Assembly: GCA_021325275.1 (NCBI GenBank)
Contig: JAJPHL010000052.1
Location: 1 to 51,589 of the forward strand
Length of the DNA: 51,589 bases
Source of the DNA: Terriglobia bacterium
Lineage (GTDB): Bacteria > Acidobacteriota > Terriglobia > JAJPHL01
Direction: 5' to 3'
Numbering within the stretch: the stretch's first letter is position 1; each line of letters begins with the position of its first letter. Positions 210 to 44,385 of the stretch are shown here, piece by piece. The notes under the pieces are model-generated. The model saw nothing but the letters and a program-made list of their open reading frames with translations, was not told where the DNA came from and did no database searches. A program made the position numbers and the translations under genes.

Positions 210-3200
210 TTAGAACGTAAGACGCGCCCCGACTTGCAACTGACGCTGCGTGCACAAGCCGCATTGCGACGTGATCACGCTGTAGCCGTTGTAGTTGGTC
301 TGGCCGGTTGACGTCACGCTCTGATTGGCAAACGTGGCGCCGGGATTGCCGAAGTTCGGGTGATTGAACAAGTTGAACGCATCACCCAGAAGCTGGAACT
401 TCAGGCGGCCTTCCCTCAGTAAGTCGAAGGTACGAGCCACGCGGAAGTCGATATTCAGGAAACCCGGCCCCGTTAGGATGTTGCGTTGCGTGTTTCCGAG
501 CGTGTTGGTCGCCGGATTGGCAAAAGCCGTGCCGTCGAAGTACGGCGAATTGGCATCGTGCCCACCGTAGACTTTAACCACCGGATTCACTTGGTTGGCG
601 CTCTGGCTTTGTCCGCCGCAATTGCACGTGATCCCCGATCCCACCGTGAACGGGAGTCCCGTGTACCGGACGAAGGTGCCACTAAGTTGCCAGCCGCCCA
701 GCAGCAGCGCCGGCACGCCGTTTTGCGCCCACTTGTGTCCGTGACCAAAAGGCACTTGGTAAATCTCGGACAGCGTGAACGTTTGTCCGCGATTGAATCC
801 CGAGTTGCCCCAGGATTGCAGCGCGTTGTACGGCCAAGTGCGCCACAGCGTACCGTCGCCATTGTCGCCGTTGATGTTGTCCTGCGCGTGCGAGTACGTG
901 TAGGCGATGATGACCTGCGACGATCCCCAGCGCTTCTTCGTTTGGGCCTGCAACGATTCGTACTTCGTGCCGCCGTACGGATAGTACGAGTTCATGTCAT
1001 TGGTATCAAACGGCGCCAGCAAGCGGCCGTTGTTGCCGGTTCCCGGCAGTGATCCGTTGATGTTGGCTTGCATCATCAACCGCAATCCGTGCGAACCGAC
1101 GTAGCCGACTTCCCCGACCCAGCTCGACGAGAATTCATGCTGGATAAACAAGTTCCAGGCCTGAATGTATCCGCGATCCTGGTTCTGCTGGAAGGTTCCG
1201 GTCGACAGCGAAGGCAAGAAGTTCGTGGTCGTCTGCACCAGCGGGCCGGTGCACGCGGCGTTCGGGCAAGCCGAAGTGAATACGCCTTTGGAAATGTCCG
1301 GATAGGTCGGCGTCGGAATACCCGTAACCAGCGTGGAGCCGCCCAGCGAACCGGCCGCCGGCGTGACACCGGCGTTGGTGATGAACTGGCCGCTGTTGGC
1401 CGGCGAAAAGTCCTGATTCACGACTGACGGGAACTGGTTGCGCTGATTGCGGAAGTTGTCCGGATCAATTGTGATTCCATAACCGCCGCGGACCACCGTC
1501 TTTTCCGTCAAGCGATACGCCAAGCCCAAGCGCGGCGCGAAACCCTTCTTCGTGGCGTTGGCGCCGGTGTCGCAGGGCGTTGATGCTTCGCAGCCGATCA
1601 AGATCGTATCGGTGACCGGATCGAAACGGTTCGCGCCGTAGTGATCGTGCGCATAGATCGGGTAATACTCCCAGCGGATTCCGTAGCTGATGGTCAGCTT
1701 GGAGTTGAACTGCCACTGATCGCGCGCGTAAAAACTGTAATCGGAAAAGCGCAGCGAGTTGGGATCGGTGAACTGCGTCACCTTGCCCATGTGCGACGGG
1801 TCGCCCAACAGGAAGGCCGCCCACGAGTTGTAGGCTCCACCCGCAAAATTGACGGTGTTAAACGTTCCGCAAGAAGCGGCCGACGCGCCGCCGTTCACAC
1901 ACAGGTCGGTGAGGAGGCCGTCGAAGCCGAACGTACCGCGCGCCGTACCGAACGTTCCGCCTTGCGGCTGGAAGTGGTTCAACGCGTAGTGATCGTACTG
2001 GACTCCGAATCGCAGGTTGTGCGAGCCGTGAACCTTGGTCAGGTTGTACGACGTGGTGTATTGATTGTCGCGGAACAGGAACGGGCTGCCCGTATTGGTG
2101 TTGCCAATGTTGGCGAATCCGCTCACCTGAAATCCGGGGACGCCTTGGTAGTCGAGACCCGGACCGTTGGTTCCCGGAATGTTCAACTGCGAGCTTCCGT
2201 AGTCCCCGTTGGACTCGTCACCGTCGGCGCCAATGTGCTGGCGCGTATAGCCGACGTTGCCGTCCAAGAACAGCGTGTTGCTGATGGCGTACGTGAACCC
2301 GATCGCGGTGGTCTGCACTTTTCCGCCCGCATGACCGGGGTTGCCGCCGTTGAACGCATCGCCGCCGGCGATCGGTCCCAGAACGAGCGGAGTGAAGATG
2401 TCCATAGGAAGGGCGCTATAACGGCCCCAAACGCCAATCTTGTCGTTGACGTTGTAGTTGATCTTCGCGTCGTAGTTGTTGCGATGCGAGTAGGTGAATC
2501 CGTACGCGTCGTAATTGACAGTGGTTTGATTCGGGCGCGTCAACGCCGGCAACTGCCCTGTGAGAGTGGCGGCTGCCGCGCTGATGCGCGCCCCAGGAAT
2601 TGTGTTGCTCGGGAACGGAATGCGTCCCGTGCCGTTGACGTTTCCGGTGAGCGGGTCCCAAATGCACTGCTGCGGCGCCGAATTGGTGGACGTGATGGCC
2701 GCCGGGTTGCAGTTCAGCGCACTAAAGTTGCCCGTGCGCCAAGGCGCCACCGGCAGCGTCAGGTTGGGCGATTGTCCGAACTGATTGCGCTTCGTATCTT
2801 GCCAATCGAAGAAGAAGAACAGCTTGTTGCGGCCGTTGTAGAGTTTCGGAATCCACACGGGACCGCCGACGAACAATCCATATTGATTGAAGACGTTCTT
2901 GGGCGGAGGCGCGGTGTTGGTGTGGCTGAAGTAAGCGACTGCGGTCTCGGCGTTGTTCTGGTTGTATTCGAAGAGTCCGCCATGCAGTTGGTTAGTGCCG
3001 CTCTTGATCGCCACGTTCACCGCCGCGCCGCCTGCCGTTCCCTGCTCGGCGTCGAAGCTATTGGTGACGATGTTGACGGTCTGGATCGCGTCGGTCGGAG
3101 GAATGTAGGCAACGTTCACCGGCAGCCACGGATAGGAAATAGTGGCGCCGTCGAGACGCGTCTGATTGCCTTGCGACGACTGGCCGTTCACAAACACGGT

Positions 3201-18884: not shown

Positions 18885-20085
18885 TCGCTAGAGCGTAGTG
18901 AATTGTTTCGAGCACTAATCCCCATTTGTGTTTTCGACTATCTTCATCGCAGTAGCAACCCGGCGCAAACGTGGATCGCTGCCAGCTTAGCACTTCATCC
19001 AAACGCTTGCCGACAAGCGGATGATCCTGCGCGATCGCCGCCATCAAGTGGTCGCGGCGATCAATGTAGGCGCACATATACGTGTGACCCGTATCGCCCG
19101 GCGCGGGCGCACATTGCTGCTCGCGAATCGGATACCCCTGATCGCGCGGTCCAAGTTTCACGCGATACAAGAATCTCAGCGGACGTCCCATGTTGGTACA
19201 CGTGGTGCCTTCGTATACGAACATCGCGTCGGTGGTTCCGTCATCGCGACGCTCCAACGTCAAGCGCTCCCCGACCCAGCGGCGCAACGCTTTCGTGTTG
19301 ACGTTGTATTTGGCGTTTGGATCGAGAGCGTTCGACTCCGCAGGCTCCTCCGCCGCGGTTTCCATCCAACGCGCGTATGGCGCGCGGCGATATTGGCACG
19401 GCGAATACGAACAACTTTCACAAGGCATCAATTCCGTCAGCGGACGCATGCGATCGACATTTCGCGTGACGCCGAACGCCGCGAGCAGCGACTTTTTCGG
19501 GCGCAGCGCGCCGGAGTCAAGCGCTTCCACTCGGGAGGCGAGTTCATGATGGCCGCCGCGAATCAACTCGAGCAGGCGCGCTTGCTCGGCGATGTCCCAT
19601 CCGACATAGCCGGGGCTATCGTGCGGCAGCACCGCCATGCCGCGATCTTCTGCCCACGCACAGAGTCGCGCGCCGGTGGTGGTGACAAGATGCTCGACGA
19701 CCGCAGATCCGTACATTTCGAGGAAAAAATATTCGTCCGGTTTTTCTTCCAGCCAAAGTTGCTGGGTGCGTTCTTCCAATTCCGGTCCCGCGCTGATTGC
19801 CGCGATCACCACGGCGTGACCGCCCGAGAGTTCCAGGGTCTTGCGCAAGCGTTCGCCGTGAAACATCGTGCCGCCGAGTTCGACGCCGTCGGTGCCGGCG
19901 CGAGGATTCTCGATCGTTCGCGCATACACCCACGGACGCCCGTTCGTCGCGTACCAATCGCGCGCCGCGCCGGCTAGCTCGCGGGCGCGATCCTGCAGAG
20001 CGTGGCCGCGCGGATATCCGAGCAGACGCAGATATTCGGCGTCGGCAACGGCGATCGACGGTGCGGTGTCGGCGATCTCGATCAT
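18874..20085 (-). CDS. MetH-activation-domain-like protein with cysteine-rich C-terminal extension
   Basis: A 403-residue protein. Its first half resembles the activation domain of cobalamin-dependent methionine synthase: YPRGHALQDRARELA, GSAVVEHLVTTTGARLC (126-142) and SPGYVGW (157-163), the counterpart of the family's SPGYPGW. Cysteines 222, 225 and 230 (PCESCSYSPCQYR) resemble the CxxCxxxxC motif that ends similar proteins in corrinoid methyltransferase clusters. The remaining 170 residues, with further cysteines (GTTCTNMG, APGCYCDED), are unfamiliar. It probably helps reactivate oxidised cob(II)alamin, perhaps binding a metal centre. It starts within the reactivase stop (ATGA). Confidence 0.78.
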   Translation of the reverse strand: MIEIADTAPSIAVADAEYLRLLGYPRGHALQDRARELAGAARDWYATNGRPWVYARTIENPRAGTDGVELGGTMFHGERLRKTLELSGGHAVVIAAISAGPELEERTQQLWLEEKPDEYFFLEMYGSAVVEHLVTTTGARLCAWAEDRGMAVLPHDSPGYVGWDIAEQARLLELIRGGHHELASRVEALDSGALRPKKSLLAAFGVTRNVDRMRPLTELMPCESCSYSPCQYRRAPYARWMETAAEEPAESNALDPNAKYNVNTKALRRWVGERLTLERRDDGTTDAMFVYEGTTCTNMGRPLRFLYRVKLGPRDQGYPIREQQCAPAPGDTGHTYMCAYIDRRDHLMAAIAQDHPLVGKRLDEVLSWQRSTFAPGCYCDEDSRKHKWGLVLETIHYALANEQ

Positions 20086-21650
20086 GCGGCGGTAGCTCCG
20101 TGGAATGAATGGAGCGGCTTGAACTGGCAGCCCTCCACGAAAAAGTCGAAGAAATTCGGGTGCGTTTCCAAGCGGCAGTGTTCCACGCGCTTCACCATCT
20201 CTTCAAGTTCGCGCCGTTTCGCCTGGGAAAGCAGCGCCATCGACGCGCCTTCAATCGCCATGTTTCCCGCAGCGACGAATTTCGCCTCCGGCAAATCGGG
20301 AATCAGTCCGATTCGCCTTGCGGCCTCGACACGCATGTGCTGGCCGAATCCGCCGGCGAGGTAGAACAGGTCCACGTCTTCAAAATCGAGTCCGAATTGA
20401 TGGAAGACCGCCTGCAATCCGGCGGCGTTAGCGCCTTTGGCTTGCGCGAGTTCGTTCACGTCGCTTTCGGTGAAGAAGATTTCGTGCTTACAGTCGATAT
20501 CGAAGCGCGCGTTTCCGTCGGTGAAGCGCCCCATCTCGTTCATCAGCCCGGTGCGGAGCAGTTCGCTGAGCAAATCGATCAATCCCGAGCCCGCGATTCC
20601 CGCCGGCGCGGCATTTCCGATTACGTCAACGTGAAACTGGTTGCAGTCAAGCCGCACGCCCTCGATCGCGCCGTCCAGCGCGGGCATTCCGCATGAAATC
20701 GCGCCGCCTTCAAAGGCGGGACCCGCGGGGCACGACGCCGCGAGAATCCGGTGACGATTTCCCACGATCAACTCCGTGTTCGTGCCCAGGTCCATGATCG
20801 CGATCATGCGATCTTCGTGCGCCAGATCGCCCGCCAACATGCACGCCGCGGCGTCGGCGCCCACATGTCCGCTGATGACCGGCGCGCCGTAGACGCGCGC
20901 ATCGGGATCGATCGGCAGCAGGCAGTGACGGCCGGTGTCGAAAAGACTCGTGGTCGAGCGCTTCCCTGCTTCCATCTCCAGTTCGGTGATCGAGCGATAG
21001 GGGCTCTGCCCGATCGTGTAAACACTCTGCCGGAAAAACAAATCGCGCATCGTCGAATTGCCGACGACCACCATCTCTTTGATCTCGCGCGGATCGACGG
21101 GAAATTCTTCGATGGCGTGCGTGAGATATCCGGCCAGCGTGCGCATCAGCAACCGGCCGGCATGTTCGGTGTCGTATTGAATGCGCGACATCACTTCGCT
21201 GCCGCCGAAACGCTGGGGATTCTCAAACGACGTCGCAGCGACTTGCTCGCCCGTAAATAAATGGAAGAGCCGCAGCACCACGGTGGTGGTGCCCAGGTCC
21301 ATCGCGATACCGTAACCGGTGCGCGGCTCGTGCGCCGGCGAAGCCAGTCGGACGCCGCTTTGCTCGATGCGCATTTGTCCACGGCGCATGGTGTGGCAAC
21401 GAACTTCACCCGCACCCACAACCTGCGTTTGGCACGAGAGGCGGAAACGATCCTTCAAGTGATCTTCCGCCGCGGTGCGAGGCGAAAGGAATTCCATCCC
21501 GGCGGTCACTTCCACCATGCACTCCTTGCACTTTCCTTGCTTGTGGCACGACGTGGGCACGCGCACGCCGAGATTCTCGGCGGCGTCAAAAACCGATTCC
21601 CCGCCGGAAATCGGCGTGGTCAGTCCATTGATTTGCAGAGTAGCAGCCAT
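20082..21650 (-). CDS. Reductive activator of corrinoid proteins (2Fe-2S plus ASKHA ATPase, RACE/RACo type)
   Basis: ATP-driven reducer that restores cob(I)alamin in the methyl carrier. The 522-residue protein opens with a plant-type ferredoxin domain with ligands Cys35, Cys41, Cys44 and Cys73. A linker leads to an ASKHA ATPase core with DLGTTT (118-123), a second phosphate motif in MDLGTNTELIVG, and AGGFGQHM near the C-terminus (the DUF4445-type region). This order is that of RACE proteins such as RACo. Its ATG follows the corrinoid protein stop with no gap. Its presence means the operon runs a true cobalt redox cycle rather than merely binding B12. Confidence 0.92.
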   Translation of the reverse strand: MAATLQINGLTTPISGGESVFDAAENLGVRVPTSCHKQGKCKECMVEVTAGMEFLSPRTAAEDHLKDRFRLSCQTQVVGAGEVRCHTMRRGQMRIEQSGVRLASPAHEPRTGYGIAMDLGTTTVVLRLFHLFTGEQVAATSFENPQRFGGSEVMSRIQYDTEHAGRLLMRTLAGYLTHAIEEFPVDPREIKEMVVVGNSTMRDLFFRQSVYTIGQSPYRSITELEMEAGKRSTTSLFDTGRHCLLPIDPDARVYGAPVISGHVGADAAACMLAGDLAHEDRMIAIMDLGTNTELIVGNRHRILAASCPAGPAFEGGAISCGMPALDGAIEGVRLDCNQFHVDVIGNAAPAGIAGSGLIDLLSELLRTGLMNEMGRFTDGNARFDIDCKHEIFFTESDVNELAQAKGANAAGLQAVFHQFGLDFEDVDLFYLAGGFGQHMRVEAARRIGLIPDLPEAKFVAAGNMAIEGASMALLSQAKRRELEEMVKRVEHCRLETHPNFFDFFVEGCQFKPLHSFHGATAA

Positions 21651-22292
21651 CTAGCTCGAAGATTTCGCCAGGCGCAGGAAAAGATCGACGGCAGCCGACG
21701 CGTTTTGACCGTATCCGTCCGCGCCGATTTCATCGGCGTACATTTGGCTGATCGGCGCGCCGCCGACAGCCATCTTGATGTGCGTGAGTCCCGCTTTTTC
21801 GAATCCGTCGATCACCACTTTCATGTACGTCATGGTGGTGGTGAGCAGCGCGCTCATGCCGATAATCGTGGGATTGCATTTGGCGGCGGCGGCCATGAAT
21901 TTGTCCACGCTTTGATCCACGCCGATGTCGTGGACTTCGAAACCGGCGCCTTCCGCCATCATCAACACCAGATTCTTGCCGATATCGTGAAGATCGCCGC
22001 GCACGGTTCCCATCAGCAGCACGCCGACCGGCTTATCCGCGGCGTGAGCGGTCAGCAACGGCTTCAGCACGGCCATGCCGGCTTTCATCGCGCGCGCCGC
22101 GATCAAGACTTCCGGCACATACACCACGTTGTATTTGAAATCCTCGCCCACCACGCTCATGCCGGCGATCAGGCCTTCCTGCAAAACTTCCTGCACGGAT
22201 CGCCCTTCGGCGAGCGCTTCTTTGGTCATGCGCTCCACGTCGGCGGCCTTGCCTTCGTAGAGACATTGATTCATGAGGGCGTAATCGACCAT
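21651..22292 (-). CDS. Methyltransferase cognate corrinoid protein (MtaC/MtbC type)
   Basis: The 213-residue methyl carrier. A helical cap (1-85) precedes a Rossmann-like cobalamin domain with the base-off motif GTVRGDLHDIG: Asp100, His102 (lower axial cobalt ligand) and Gly105. SALLTTTM and GGAPIS complete the B12 pocket. AGGAG five bases before the ATG sets the start. It sits between the UroD-like methyltransferase (17 bases upstream) and the reactivase (contiguous). It should accept a methyl group from the former and donate it to the homocysteine methyltransferase. Confidence 0.93.
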   Translation of the reverse strand: MVDYALMNQCLYEGKAADVERMTKEALAEGRSVQEVLQEGLIAGMSVVGEDFKYNVVYVPEVLIAARAMKAGMAVLKPLLTAHAADKPVGVLLMGTVRGDLHDIGKNLVLMMAEGAGFEVHDIGVDQSVDKFMAAAAKCNPTIIGMSALLTTTMTYMKVVIDGFEKAGLTHIKMAVGGAPISQMYADEIGADGYGQNASAAVDLFLRLAKSSS

Positions 22293-22309
22293 TTCTCTCC
22301 TACAACCGG

Positions 22310-23371
22310 CTAGGCGGCAATCACCACGCGCCGCGCGTTGAATTCCGCCAGCGCTTCCTGCATCGCCACCACGTTCTCGCGCGGCATCCCGGGACTCACT
22401 CCGCCGCCCACCGACAGAATGATTCCCTCGCCGCCCGATGCCTCCAACACTTCCAGCGTCGCTTCACGTACTTCCTCGGGCGTTCCGCGCACGGCAATCT
22501 CCAGCGGATTCACATTACCCATCAGACACATTCGATCGCCCACGCGCGCTCTCACTTCACTGATGTGTTTCTGCTTGCCCCAATTCAACACGTGAAATCC
22601 GGCGTCGGGCAAGTGATTCAGGCAGGCGTCGACTTCCGCGTCGTTGTGGTAAATCTTCACCCAATCGGCGGGAAACGCGTCGCAAATGCGCTTCAAGTAG
22701 GGATGCGCGAACTCCAGGTAATGCTCCTCGTTGATGAATCCAACGATGTCGTCGAGGATGAAAATGCCCTCCACCGTGTCGCCCATCACTTTGTGCTGCG
22801 CCTTCAGCCAGTCGATGATCACGCGCGTGCACAAATCGATCAGGCGATGCGCGCCCGCGGGATCTTCCACCAAATCGATCATGAAACGCGTGGTCGACCG
22901 CACGAATCCCGCCGTACAAAGCGGTCCCCGCGACGTCACGATCGGCAAAATGTAGCCGTGATCCAAAATGCGCTGCTTGTGCATGCCGATGCGATGCAGC
23001 GTGAGCGCGGCGAAGCCGTCGGCTTCCACTTCGTAATCGGGAAACTCATCGATGTCCTCAATGCGCTGCAGCGTGTGATACTCGCTCGGCGTGTTGTCCT
23101 GCCAAAACTTGATCTTCGCGCCCAACACGCTCGGCTCGGCGGCCATTCCGTACTCCATCCACCACGACGGAACGAAGATGATGTCGGGATATTCCCGCAT
23201 GATCTTCAAGTTCGAGTTGAACCAAAGCTCCGGATCGAGGAAATAGTCGAGGTGCTTGATGCCGAGATAGCCGGGAATCCACGGGCTATCGATGATCATG
23301 GCCATCGGAACTTTCTCGAGTTTCTCCCGCCGCGCGGCGCGCTTAAATGTCTCCCACTGTTCCGGACGCAT
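22310..23371 (-). CDS. UroD/MtaA-superfamily corrinoid methyltransferase, substrate unknown
   Basis: First gene of the corrinoid operon and probably the substrate-specific methyltransferase I. The 353-residue barrel shows the UroD-superfamily ending (GNVNPLEIAVRGTPEEVREA, then GEGIILSVGGGVSPG). Thiol-methylating members such as MtaA/MtbA bind zinc through an HxC motif and a later Cys in a GCG-like loop. Here these regions read KIYHNDAE (His242, no Cys) and SVGGGVSPG (Gly instead of Cys). The zinc-thiol site is therefore missing, which fits a methyl-donor demethylase rather than an acceptor thiol enzyme. AAGGTGAG precedes the ATG. Context points to a methoxylated sugar acid, possibly 4-O-methylglucuronate. 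Confidence 0.85.
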   Translation of the reverse strand: MRPEQWETFKRAARREKLEKVPMAMIIDSPWIPGYLGIKHLDYFLDPELWFNSNLKIMREYPDIIFVPSWWMEYGMAAEPSVLGAKIKFWQDNTPSEYHTLQRIEDIDEFPDYEVEADGFAALTLHRIGMHKQRILDHGYILPIVTSRGPLCTAGFVRSTTRFMIDLVEDPAGAHRLIDLCTRVIIDWLKAQHKVMGDTVEGIFILDDIVGFINEEHYLEFAHPYLKRICDAFPADWVKIYHNDAEVDACLNHLPDAGFHVLNWGKQKHISEVRARVGDRMCLMGNVNPLEIAVRGTPEEVREATLEVLEASGGEGIILSVGGGVSPGMPRENVVAMQEALAEFNARRVVIAA

Positions 23372-32630: not shown

Positions 32631-33890
32631 ATGACCTCGGTCAATCGCCGCCATTTCCTGGGACTCCTTCCCGCGACCGCGCTCCTCGCCGAGACGCCGC
32701 CGCTCAAGATCACCGCCGTCGAGGTTTGGCAATATCACGGGCATCACGACACGACGCCCGGCGTCGATCAGCAGTACCAAGTGAATCCGCTGTACATCTA
32801 CGACGAATTGCGGCCCGCGCCGTATCGCGACAATCCCAATCCCACGCCCGGAAAATCCGCGATCAGCGCGTATTACTTGAAAATCAAAACGGCCGAGGCC
32901 GAAGGATTCTACGGGCCGATCGACAAAGAAGTCGCGATCGTGGTGGAGCAGCAATTGCGCCCGTTCCTCATCGGAAAGGACGCGCTCGCCGGAGAAAAAC
33001 TGTGGGACCAGATGTATCGCTCCAATCGCCTCTCGCGCCGCGGACTTTTTCTGATGGCCATCAGCGCCGTCGACAACACGCTGTGGGACTTGCGCGGGCG
33101 ATATTTCAAAACCCCGGTCTATCGCCTGCTCGGTGGACCGTCGCGCGCGTCGGTGGAGGCGTACGCGAGTTGCCTGGGATATTCGATCGAGCCGGAAAAA
33201 GCGCGCGCCCGCGCCATCGCCGTGAAGAACGAGGGATTCCGCTATCAAAAGTGGTTTCTCGCCTACGGTCCCGGCGACGGCTACGAGGGCTTAAAGAAAA
33301 ATGTGGAACTGGTGCGCGTGGTCCGCGAGGCGGTCGGCGAAGAAACGGAACTCATGTTCGACGTTTACTCCGGCTGGGATCTGACCTACGTGCTCGAATG
33401 GGCCAAGCTAGTAGAACGCTACCGGCCGCGCTGGATCGAGGAAGCGACGCAAGCGGAAAAAATCGGCGCGTTCGCGGAGTTGCGCCGCAGCACCACGATC
33501 CCCGTGGCCAGCGGCGAGCACATTCAAGGACGCTGGGAAGTTTACGACTACATGAAGGAAGGCGCGCTCAGCGTGATCCAATGCGATCCCGAGTGGTGCG
33601 GCGGCACTTCCGAGCTCGTGAAGATTTGCACGCTCGCGTCACTCTACGACGTGCCGGTGATCCCGCACGGGCACAGCATTCACGCGGCGCTGCACGTCAT
33701 CGCGAGTCAATCGCCGGCGGTGTGCCCGCTGGCGGAATATCTCATCTTGAAAATGCGCTCGTACTATCACTTCGAGAAAAATCCGCCGAAGGTCGAGCGC
33801 GCGCACCTGAAATTGCCTGAAACGCCGGGATACGGCATCGAGATCGACGACGCCAAAGCCGAGTCGCGCGAACTGGTGCGTTGGAACTAA
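32631..33890 (+). CDS. Enolase-superfamily dehydratase (rhamnonate-dehydratase-like) with a Tat-type signal
   Basis: A 419-residue acid-sugar dehydratase relative. The N-terminus MTSVNRRHFLGLLPATALLA has twin arginines (6 and 7) before a hydrophobic stretch, as in Tat signals. The catalytic part shows KWFLAYGPGDGYEG, MFDVYSGWDL, RWIEEA, ASGEHIQGRW and PHGHSIHAALH, the order of metal and base residues seen in L-rhamnonate dehydratase. Export of such an enzyme would be unusual, as most relatives are cytoplasmic. No Shine-Dalgarno is seen; TGTAAT (32617-32622) ends eight bases before the ATG, suggesting a leaderless transcript. Its stop overlaps by four bases the end of the convergent peroxiredoxin gene. 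Confidence 0.85.
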   Translation: MTSVNRRHFLGLLPATALLAETPPLKITAVEVWQYHGHHDTTPGVDQQYQVNPLYIYDELRPAPYRDNPNPTPGKSAISAYYLKIKTAEAEGFYGPIDKEVAIVVEQQLRPFLIGKDALAGEKLWDQMYRSNRLSRRGLFLMAISAVDNTLWDLRGRYFKTPVYRLLGGPSRASVEAYASCLGYSIEPEKARARAIAVKNEGFRYQKWFLAYGPGDGYEGLKKNVELVRVVREAVGEETELMFDVYSGWDLTYVLEWAKLVERYRPRWIEEATQAEKIGAFAELRRSTTIPVASGEHIQGRWEVYDYMKEGALSVIQCDPEWCGGTSELVKICTLASLYDVPVIPHGHSIHAALHVIASQSPAVCPLAEYLILKMRSYYHFEKNPPKVERAHLKLPETPGYGIEIDDAKAESRELVRWN

Positions 33891-34351
33891 CTCAAGGCGT
33901 CGAGAGCGGCCAGCACCGCTTCGGTGTGTCCCTCGATTTTCACTTTGGAAAAAATCTTGGCGATCTTGCCGCCGGGCGCGATGACGAACGTCGAGCGTTC
34001 GATGCCCATCACGATCTTGCCGTACATGTTTTTCTTTTTCCACACGCCGTACTCCTGCGCGACTTTCTTTTCCGTGTCGCACAGCAGCGTGAACGGCAAA
34101 TGGAATTTCTCGTGAAATTTCTTCTGTGCCGCGGGCGCGTCGGGGCTCGCGCCCAAAATCACGGCGCCGCGCTTTTCAAATTCGTCGAATGCATCACGGA
34201 ACCCGGATGCCTCACTCACTCAACCGGGCGTATTGGCTCGCGGATAGAAATAGAAAACCACGGGCTGTCCCTTGAACTGCGCGAGCGCCACCGGCTCGCC
34301 GTCCTGGTTCAGCAATTTGAAATCGGGCGCCTTTTTGCCTTCCTGCACCAT
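33887..34351 (-). CDS. bcp: Probable selenocysteine-containing BCP/PrxQ-type peroxiredoxin
   Basis: Thiol- or selenol-dependent peroxidase. The frame runs from ATG at 34351 to TAG at 33887 with one internal TGA at 34220-34222. Upstream it reads GKKAPDFKLLNQDGEPVAL and then VVFYFYPRANTPG; downstream VSEASGFRDAFDEF... to the family's normal end. In BCP proteins the peroxidatic cysteine occupies exactly the TGA position (TPGCT.EA.GFRD; Cys45 in E. coli), so TGA most simply encodes selenocysteine at residue 44. A SECIS-like hairpin follows (34191-34210). The resolving Cys of E. coli BCP is Ser here. With Sec the length is 154 residues, normal for the family. It starts five bases after gatB. Alternative: a nonsense mutation or sequencing error. 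Confidence 0.8.
34191..34210 (-). promoter_or_regulatory. Bacterial SECIS-like hairpin for the in-frame TGA
   Basis: In the mRNA, GCAUC-CGG-GUU-CCG-U-GAUGC folds into an 8-bp stem with a three-base loop starting with G and one bulged U. The loop lies 17 bases after the UGA, within the 16-37 base window usual for bacterial SECIS elements. It lies inside the coding region, as expected for SelB-dependent decoding. Confidence 0.6.
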
Positions 34352-34356
34352 TCGTT

Positions 34357-35808
34357 TTATTCCAGCGCTTTCCTTAGAAGTTCGTTCACCGCCGCGGGAT
34401 TCGCTTGACCGCGCGTCGCCTTCATCACTTGACCCACCAGGAATCCGATGACCGTGGTTTTCCCGCCCTTGTATTGTTCCACCTGCTTGGGACTCGCCGC
34501 AATCACTTCGGCCACAATCTTTTCGAGCGCGGCGGTGTCGCTGATTTGCGCGAGACTTTCGCTGTCCACAATCTCGCGCGCGCCGCGGCCCGTTTCGAAC
34601 ATTTTCAGAAACACGTGCTTCGCGATTTTTCCGGAAATCGCGCCAGAGGATTGCAGTTTCAATAATTCGCCGAGCGCCGGCGCGCTCACCGGCGACGCTT
34701 CAATCGTTTTGCCGGCGGTGTTCAGTTGACCCAACACGTCGCCCATCACCCAATTCGCCGCCGCGCGCGCGTCGCCGGAGGATTTTGCGGCTTCCTCGAA
34801 GTAATGCGCGATGGCCTTCGACGACGTGAGCACGCCGGCGTTGTATTCCGTCATGCCGTACGACGCGATGAAGCGCGCGCGCCGCGCTTCCGGTAATTCC
34901 GGAATGGTCGCGCGGATTTCCTCGCGCCACGCGTCGCCGACCACCAGCGGCGCCAGGTCCGGCTCGGGGAAATAGCGATAGTCGTGTGCTTGCTCCTTGC
35001 TGCGCATGCCGATGGTGCGTTGCTCGGCGGTATTCCACAGCCGCGTTTCCTGATGAATCGTGCCGCCCGACTCGAGCACTGCGATTTGCCGATCGATTTC
35101 GTAGTCGAGCGCCTGCTTGAGGAAGCGAAAGGAATTCAAGTTTTTCACTTCCGCCTTGGTGCCGAGCTTTTCCGCGCCGCGCAGGCGTACGCTGACGTTG
35201 GCGTCACAGCGCAAGCTGCCTTCTTCCATGTTGCAATCGGAAACTTCCAGGTACAGCAGAATCTCTTTCAGCCGCGTAAGGAACTCGTGGGCCTCATTCG
35301 ATCCACGCATGTCCGGCTCGGTGACGATTTCCGCCAGCGGCGTGCCGGAGCGGTTGAGATCCACATACGAACGTTTTGCGGAATCGCCGAAACCGTCGTG
35401 AACGCTCTTGCCGGCATCGTCTTCAAGGTGCAGTCGCGTGATGCCGATGCGCTTGGGCGCGCCGCCTTCGCGAATGTCGATCCATCCATGCTCCGCGAGT
35501 GGTTGATCGTACTGCGAAATCTGGTAGCCCTTCGGCAAGTCGGGATAAAAGTAATTCTTCCGCGCAAATCCCGACACGCCGCGCACTTCGCAATTCAACG
35601 CCAGCGACGCTTTCACGCCCAGTTCCACGGCGCGCCGATTCAGTACCGGCAGCGCGCCGGGCAATCCCAGGCACACGGGACACGTTTGCGAATTCGGCGG
35701 CGCGCCGAAGCGGGTGGAGCATCCGCAAAACGCCTTCGATTGCGTGAGGAGCTGCACGTGCACTTCAAGCCCGATCACCGGCTCGTATTTTTCCAGCAAC
35801 GCTGTCAT
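34357..35808 (-). CDS. gatB: Asp-tRNA(Asn)/Glu-tRNA(Gln) amidotransferase subunit B
   Basis: Subunit of the GatCAB complex that converts mischarged Glu-tRNA(Gln) and Asp-tRNA(Asn) by amidation. The 483-residue protein starts with the hallmark [11 protein letters not shown] and shows [14 protein letters not shown]-type and [12 protein letters not shown] motifs, the activation-site region (MEEGSLRCD), and a C-terminal GatB/YqeY tail ([20 protein letters not shown]). A TATAAT box ends 11 bases before the ATG. The peroxiredoxin gene follows after five bases and is probably co-transcribed. gatA and gatC are not in the window. Confidence 0.97.
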
Positions 35809-43206: not shown

Positions 43207-44385
43207 GTGCTGAACCGCCCACTCGCCCCTGCGTTGCTTGTTTGCGCCTTGCTTGTTTGCGCCTCGTGTCTGGCTCTCGCTCAAGAGCCCGCGCCAAAAT
43301 CTTCGCCCGCCCATCCGATTCTCGCGACCGGCTCGCCCGCGCCGGATTTCTCTCTGCCCGGCATCGACGGCAAAACGCACACTCTCGCCGAGTACAAGGA
43401 CAGTCCGCTGCTGATGGTGATGTTCATCTGCAACCACTGTCCCACGTCGCAGCTCTACGAGGGGCGCATCAAGAAGCTGGTAGACGATTATCGCGGCAAG
43501 GGCGTGGCCTTCGTGGCAATCGAGCCGAACGATCCGAAAGCGATTCAGCTCTCTGAACTCGGTTACACGGATGTGAGCGACGATATGGAGGGCATGAAGA
43601 TTCGCGCGGAGTATCGGCATTTCGATTTTCCCTACTTGTACGACGGCGCAACGCAAGCCGCGGCGCAAGCGTACGGCGCGCAAGCCACGCCTCACGTTTT
43701 TCTCTTCGACCGCGAGCGCAAACTGCGCTACGAAGGACGCATCGACGACTCGCAGCGCGAGTCGCTGGTGAAAACGCAGGATGCCCGCGCGGCGATCGAC
43801 GCATTGCTCGCCGGAAGACCCGTCGCGGCGGCACACACGCCGTCGTTTGGGTGCTCGACGAAGTGGAAATCGAAGATCGACGGTCAGCTCGCGGAAATGC
43901 GCAAGATCGAAGCCGAGCCGGTGAACGTGGAGATGGTTTCGGCTGACGAGTTGAAGAAGCTGCGCGCGAATCCCACGAACAAAGTACTGCTTGTGAGTTT
44001 CTGGGCCACGTGGTGCGGTCCTTGCGTGACGGAATTCCCGGATCTCGAGACGACGTTCCGAATGTTCCGCCGCCGCGACTTCGACATGGTGACGGTGTCG
44101 GCGAATTATCCGGACGAAAAAACGGGCGTGCTGAAGGTTCTGAATGAGCAGCACGCCTCGGGACGCAATTTGCTTTTCGGATCAACAGAAACGTACGCGC
44201 TGCAAGCGGCGTTCAATCCCAAATGGCAAAGCGCCGTGCCGTACCTGATGGTGATCGCGCCGGGCGGCCGTGTGATCTTCGAGTCGCAGGGTGAGATGAA
44301 CGTGTTGGAATTGCGCCGGGCGATTTTGGCGAATCTTGAGAACGATACGTACGTGGGACATCCGGGGTATTGGGCTACGAAGTAG
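43207..44385 (+). CDS. Exported protein with two thioredoxin-like domains
   Basis: A 392-residue periplasmic redox protein. After a signal peptide come an AhpC/TSA-like domain (GSPAPDFSLPGIDGKTHTL) with Cys75-x-x-Cys78 (ICNHC), and a second thioredoxin fold with WATWCGPC (Cys270, Cys273). It could pass reducing power or make and correct disulfides. A GTG start at 43207 is set by GGAGGG. The signal-peptide region has an internal 15-base duplication (CTTGTTTGCGCC repeated), giving LLVCALLVCA. It follows the receptor at 39524 in what looks like a two-gene operon; the partner substrate is unknown. Confidence 0.87.
   Translation: MLNRPLAPALLVCALLVCASCLALAQEPAPKSSPAHPILATGSPAPDFSLPGIDGKTHTLAEYKDSPLLMVMFICNHCPTSQLYEGRIKKLVDDYRGKGVAFVAIEPNDPKAIQLSELGYTDVSDDMEGMKIRAEYRHFDFPYLYDGATQAAAQAYGAQATPHVFLFDRERKLRYEGRIDDSQRESLVKTQDARAAIDALLAGRPVAAAHTPSFGCSTKWKSKIDGQLAEMRKIEAEPVNVEMVSADELKKLRANPTNKVLLVSFWATWCGPCVTEFPDLETTFRMFRRRDFDMVTVSANYPDEKTGVLKVLNEQHASGRNLLFGSTETYALQAAFNPKWQSAVPYLMVIAPGGRVIFESQGEMNVLELRRAILANLENDTYVGHPGYWATK

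Follow-up and report, generated by a model that had tools for sequence, protein, structure and literature searches.

A BCP/PrxQ-type peroxiredoxin gene with an in-frame TGA at the peroxidatic position is a probable selenoprotein gene in Acidobacteriota

Introduction

Peroxiredoxins classified under COG1225 are taken here to be Bcp proteins. Selenocysteine (Sec)-containing BCP/PrxQ peroxiredoxins have been an already known kind since 2005, because COG1225-type Sec peroxiredoxins with a TXXU motif were in print in that year, 43 of them being listed in passages of PMC1088965. The same type is treated in passages of PMC1794560, PMC5029168 and PMC13188914, and those of PMC5029168 give 91 Sec peroxiredoxins in 78 organisms. 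The locus described here resembles the entries of PMC1088965 in being of the COG1225 type, in having Sec in a TxxU motif and in having widespread Cys homologues. However, the passages of that source name no loss of the resolving cysteine, which is absent here from more than half of the Sec sequences compared. A table of 2006 counts five Cys-to-Sec changes and no Sec-to-Cys change among peroxiredoxins, whereas here one Cys-encoding relative keeps a Sec-type hairpin. PrxU of Eubacterium acidaminophilum, as cited in a passage of PMC13188914, is likewise a peroxiredoxin whose peroxidatic residue is Sec, but the protein studied here is of the BCP/PrxQ type; its membership in the PrxU family was rejected by NCBIfam model NF040737 (46.4 bits versus a cut-off of 270). 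Xanthomonas campestris PrxQ (5iiz) and a Burkholderia ambifaria protein (5enu) resemble the present protein in fold and in sequence (40% identity). The present protein differs from both in its peroxidatic residue, Sec instead of Cys, and in the Ser five residues after it (Cp+5), although 5enu, a Cys enzyme, is likewise without Cys at Cp+5. Neither the loss of the resolving cysteine in Sec-containing BCPs nor Sec peroxiredoxins in Acidobacteriota were named in the titles and abstract openings found, among which subscription journals were little covered.

Here, a gene in the window (the whole stretch of DNA analysed, 51,589 nucleotides) is described that, with a probability of about 0.96, encodes a functional selenoprotein: a BCP/PrxQ-type peroxiredoxin whose peroxidatic UGA is read as Sec by the organism's own SelA, SelB, SelD and tRNA-Sec, steered by a hairpin. 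This interpretation, first proposed in a first-pass annotation made from the sequence alone, is supported by the analyses below.

A complete peroxiredoxin frame interrupted by one TGA

Translation of the minus strand yielded a complete BCP/PrxQ peroxiredoxin of 154 amino acids, in which the TGA at residue 44 was the sole internal stop (Table 1). The first-pass annotation had located the gene correctly without giving its strand, and had claimed that both halves lie in one frame broken by TGA alone, exactly at the peroxidatic Cys; both claims hold. Residue 44 sits in the motif TPGU, flanked by ANTPG and VSEASGFRD, and the aligned residue of relatives is Cys. The read-through protein matched Pfam AhpC-TSA with 133.8 bits and passed NCBIfam NF006960 ('thioredoxin-dependent thiol peroxidase') with 161.3 bits at a cut-off of 140, and it did not pass a second PrxQ model, NF053650 (149.9 of 260 bits). 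An AlphaFold2 model with Cys placed at position 44 had a mean pLDDT of 96.4 and shared the fold of solved BCP/PrxQ structures, with TM-scores of 0.94 (5enu_A) and 0.91 (5iiz). The PxxxTxxC active site was present, with P37, T41, residue 44 and R119 (presumably the conserved Arg of BCP/PrxQ peroxiredoxins) invariant in a 37-row alignment if U is counted as equivalent to C. The list of open reading frames (ORFs) contained in this frame only a 110-aa piece (33887-34219) that starts at the GTG directly after the TGA, confirming the expectation that standard gene calling would report the C-terminal piece from GTG 34219 alone. Taken as a stop, the TGA leaves only this fragment, and the 36 other TGA rows described below would be affected likewise, so that a peroxidase and its active site would be hidden.

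Table 1 Coordinates of the features of the locus and of related genes. Positions are those of the window unless a contig or row is named; motifs are given with U for the TGA codon.
Feature	Position	Strand	Basis or remark
Predicted Sec-containing BCP/PrxQ peroxiredoxin gene	33887..34351	(-)	ATG 34351-34349, stop TAG; frame, profile matches, structure comparison
UGA, predicted codon for selenocysteine, peroxidatic position, residue 44	34220..34222	(-)	Translation and alignment of relatives
TCC codon, Ser49	34205..34207	(-)	Resolving-Cys position of the 60 Cys rows compared
SECIS-like hairpin, 8 bp and one bulged U	34191..34210	(-)	Folding; covariation in Sec rows
Apical loop GUU	34200..34202	(-)	Opens with the third base (G) of the Gly50 codon GGG
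gatB-like gene	34357..35808	(-)	5 bases between its end and the peroxiredoxin ATG; ORF list
TGA-bearing AhpC/TSA gene L043	C32:62467-62838		Motif TGGU
TGA-bearing AhpC/TSA gene L044	C27:118498-118866		Motif TPGU
TGA-bearing AhpC/TSA gene L045	C44:5823-6212		Motif WUPYC
TGA-bearing AhpC/TSA gene L046	C71:6655-6993		Motif WUGC
Cys-form relative with Sec-type hairpin	row L144 (G584), 591-632	(-)	TGT at codon 44
Corrinoid-activating-protein-like ORF	20082-21650	(-)	AcsV-like, under the curated cut-off
MtaA/CmuA-type methyltransferase-like ORF	22310-23371	(-)	Under the curated cut-off
ORF region with two successive AhpC/TSA matches	43330-44274	(+)	One 408-aa open frame; neither match with TGA

Exchange of TGA and Cys codons among relatives

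Homologs were collected by protein searches of 396 genomes of the phylum (253 matched at 1e-25) and 399 genomes of the class (335 matched at 1e-35), the two draws overlapping. At least 41 other genomes were flagged for a TGA within the match, and in 36 genomes beyond the window's own, among the matches listed, it fell at codon 44; rows with the TGA elsewhere in the match (L108, L110, L113, L119 and L125) were counted as Cys rows. As a result, codon 44 was TGA in 37 and TGC or TGT in 60 of the 97 phylum rows compared, the window's included, a ratio that gives no frequency estimate, the query being a Sec form and all listed TGA-flagged rows having been taken but the others only in part. The exchange of TGA with TGC/TGT at this codon, which the first-pass annotation had suggested looking for, was thus found. 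A further 20 rows from other phyla, mostly Kaistella/Chryseobacterium and other Bacteroidota, had Cys at both residues 44 and 49 and were kept out of the 60. In a quick tree of the compared rows the best arrangement needed nine Sec/Cys changes, two of them forced by well-supported branches.

The selA gene was found in all 37 TGA genomes and in 31 of the 43 Cys genomes examined (Fisher p 0.0003, kinship ignored), and all 12 genomes lacking it carried the Cys form. selB scored above its cut-off in 35 of the 37 TGA genomes and 30 of the 43 Cys genomes; the two TGA genomes in which it was not found above the cut-off are 88% and 82% complete. These counts omit 17 of the 60 Cys genomes, eight from outside the class and nine from genera already represented. 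In nine genomes (G593, G646, G661, G599, G714, G697, G730, G734 and G084) the selA model matched only from about position 134-140 of open frames of about 490-545 aa, and the N-terminal part of the protein is perhaps divergent there.

Selenocysteine machinery and further candidate selenoproteins

The window's own assembly comprises 6.86 Mb in 75 contigs and is 97.6% complete. tRNA-Sec, selA, selB and selD, whose complete absence the first-pass annotation had named as evidence against its reading, were all present in this genome. The tRNA-Sec, with anticodon TCA, scored 69.4 bits with the Rfam model (cut-off 47), which by itself is unspecific, two tRNA-Ser genes of the same genome also exceeding the cut-off; ARAGORN separated them and called the gene tRNA-SeC. 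Matches to selA (523.5 bits), selB (333.8 bits) and selD (365.1 bits) were obtained, and scores above the cut-offs occurred in only one, two and two of 14 control genomes for the three genes. The SelD frame carries one TGA of its own, at AAGU.

Four more AhpC/TSA-domain genes of this genome contain a single in-frame TGA, located at the redox Cys position or next to it (Table 1), and two of them, L043 and L044, have a common hairpin downstream of it. With the window's gene counted, TGA occurred in 5 of 18 AhpC/TSA matches, and six selenoprotein genes, SelD included, are likely in the genome. The next-best matches to the peroxiredoxin within the genome were 36-37% identical and likewise contained one TGA each; the protein search revealed no close Cys-form BCP there. 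Since 13 further AhpC/TSA matches were without TGA, other peroxidases may exist in this organism.

A SECIS-like hairpin with signs of constraint in TGA rows

The hairpin that the first-pass annotation had placed 17 bases after the UGA, with a G-initial loop, was present as described: the sequence GCAUCCGGGUUCCGUGAUGC folds with -8.8 kcal/mol as a 20-mer, and the first loop base is the 18th after the UGA. Published criteria for bacterial SECIS (bSECIS) elements, in the passages of PMC13188914, comprise a loop of 3-9 nt with G within its first two positions, a stem of 4-16 bp, 16-37 nt from the UGA, and an energy of at most -7.5 kcal/mol. The window hairpin fits this model with its GUU loop, 8 bp, 17 nt and -8.8 kcal/mol. 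Scanning the window against Rfam with gathering cut-offs gave no match. Single-sequence folding was not used as support, the 46-nt stretch folded alone having a stability mildly above that of shuffled sequences (-14.6 kcal/mol; z -1.61, with 14 of 200 shuffles at least equally stable). That the hairpin stands above chance follows from the comparison with relatives rather than from its own folding.

Among the 37 Sec rows, of which 34 are distinct, covariation scores of 0.209 and 0.172 were obtained in two registers, each with none of 500 shuffles as high, and no shuffle of 500 reached the number of paired cells and of cells changed on both sides in either register. Two other measures lay within the range of the shuffles: 39 and 49 of 500 had at least as many pairs changed on both sides (four), and 106 and 122 had at least as many additional pair types. 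In contrast, the same helix in the 60 Cys rows was at the shuffled mean, its score being reached by 258 of 500 shuffles, so that the covariation check singled out the TGA rows only. Because the helix was drawn from the Sec rows, and related rows can beat shuffles without structure, the covariation is strong support and not proof. The clearest sign of constraint at the RNA level is a synonymous choice, since GGG at Gly50 supplies the G of the loop: the codon was GGG in 25 of 27 Sec rows versus 2 of 20 Cys rows with Gly there (kinship ignored); across 17 other window ORFs, GGG accounts for 93 of the 909 Gly codons. Whatever the residue, codon counts showed the loop beginning with G in 32 of the 37 Sec rows and in 19 of the 60 Cys rows, and the mean energy of the 27-nt stretch was -9.9 kcal/mol in Sec rows versus -6.0 kcal/mol in Cys rows.

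The common hairpin was missing in five Sec rows. Two of these (L118 and L123) have a different hairpin with the loop GGA, and in the other three (L114 in G716, L121 in G700 and L117 in G415), which have TGA and selA, none compatible with the bSECIS model was identified. Conversely, row L144, one of the two GGG exceptions among the Cys rows, retains the whole Sec-type hairpin with a Cys codon in a genome that has selA, and its sequence makes a Sec-to-Cys reversal with a fossil SECIS likely.

Absence of the resolving cysteine on the Sec side

Residue 49 (Cp+5), which we take to be the position of the resolving Cys of E. coli BCP, was Cys in all 60 Cys rows, whereas in the Sec rows it was Cys in 16, Ser in 12, Arg in 7 and Ile in 2. 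Cys49 is therefore missing from 21 of 37 Sec rows versus 0 of 60 Cys rows. The window's Ser49 is among the 21, and by this residue its protein is not a two-Cys BCP. The earlier statement that the resolving Cys is Ser thus stands as to the residue. In the quick tree, the kept or lost state of Cys49 needs ten changes at best, and kinship-aware pairs for the residue-49 and GGG patterns numbered only two on well-supported branches, too small a number for testing, and nine and five on all branches.

Among the 21 Sec rows that lack Cys49, 13 had no other Cys; Cys91 was present in five, the window's included, Cys98 in two and Cys151 in one, a count that covers the aligned stretch, beyond which some rows extend by a few terminal residues. 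Many of these proteins would accordingly be one-Sec enzymes as judged by sequence. The 1-Sec mechanism that the first-pass annotation had proposed is thus strengthened for the group, and the window protein may be such an enzyme unless Cys91 acts as its resolver. Because a Cys enzyme may also lack Cys at Cp+5, as 5enu does outside the group, the loss of Cys49 together with Sec appears to be a strong tendency of the group and not a law.

Proposed mechanism and alternative explanations

In the proposed mechanism, the hairpin, starting 10 nt after the UGA, would direct Sec insertion by way of SelA, SelB, SelD and tRNA-Sec. The resulting selenolate, located close to where helix 42-53 of the model begins, would attack the peroxide and become a selenenic acid. 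Given Ser in place of the resolving Cys, this acid would be restored by an outside thiol or reductase, a 1-Sec cycle in place of the Cp-Cr disulfide route of two-Cys BCPs. These steps are drawn from peroxiredoxin chemistry.

An ordinary Cys peroxiredoxin could be turned into a pseudogene by a recent nonsense mutation, or appear as one through a sequencing error, and TGC and TGA differ by one base in an organism represented here by one assembly. However, 36 other genomes share the TGA at this codon, with the remaining frame intact over the aligned stretch, which makes chance or a sequencing slip very unlikely, and both the full Sec machinery of the genome and the hairpin constraint in Sec rows argue against decay. 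The observation of a peroxiredoxin frame with TGA at the peroxidatic codon is confirmed as real. Slightly less probable still is that a suppressor tRNA decodes the UGA, inserting cysteine or some other amino acid. Such tRNAs exist, and Cys is the aligned residue of relatives, but the genome has a tRNA-Sec reading UGA along with selA, selB and selD, the hairpin fits the bSECIS model, and selA accompanies the TGA in every TGA genome compared.

Least probable of all is termination at the UGA with a restart at the adjoining GTG, producing two cooperating pieces or a separate C-terminal protein. The adjacency of the two codons and the 110-aa ORF given by gene callers would accord with it, but the catalytic residue 44 would be absent from either piece, the codon after the TGA is not a start in most Sec rows (ACC or ACG, for example), and the sign of selection falls on the hairpin. 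Sec insertion at the UGA is thus the preferred reading.

The two-Cys to one-Sec pattern is the part worth keeping. We lean, by a narrow measure, towards a broader scenario in which Sec removes the need for a resolving Cys, so that Sec-containing BCPs of the phylum would have passed repeatedly from a two-Cys to a one-Sec state with another donor, some having reverted to Cys and left a hairpin remnant. If so, the group would serve as a natural experiment for asking why lineages retain or lose Sec. The 37 Sec and 60 Cys rows, with Cys49 loss on the Sec side only, provide a comparative system for the benefit of Sec over Cys in a peroxidase.

Genomic context

The peroxiredoxin gene is preceded by an ORF that we name gatB-like from its sequence and whose end is separated from the start codon by 5 bases, which suggests that the two genes are likely co-transcribed. 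The C-terminal part of the gatB-like gene was also found at 15 other loci examined (six Sec and nine Cys; stretches of 1.0 to 3.5 kb, scored for presence only, in any order or strand), and its occurrence beside both forms speaks for their orthology. Genome-wide recoding of TGA was considered and rejected, as TGA is the ordinary stop of 5 of 17 other window ORFs checked, a UvrA-like one among them.

Elsewhere in the window, two successive AhpC/TSA matches lie in one open frame, and the corrinoid-activating-protein-like and methyltransferase-like ORFs (20082-23371, minus strand) together look like a corrinoid methyl-transfer locus (Table 1). Two further features suggest an acidobacterial origin of the DNA. 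A Solibacter C-terminal domain was detected in the window (TIGR03437, 73.3 bits, cut-off 29.05). The model of the acidobacterial duplicated orphan permease had 44 matches in the window's own genome, the best with 977.7 bits at a cut-off of 622.3, which none of 14 control genomes and 4 of 9 genomes tested exceeded.
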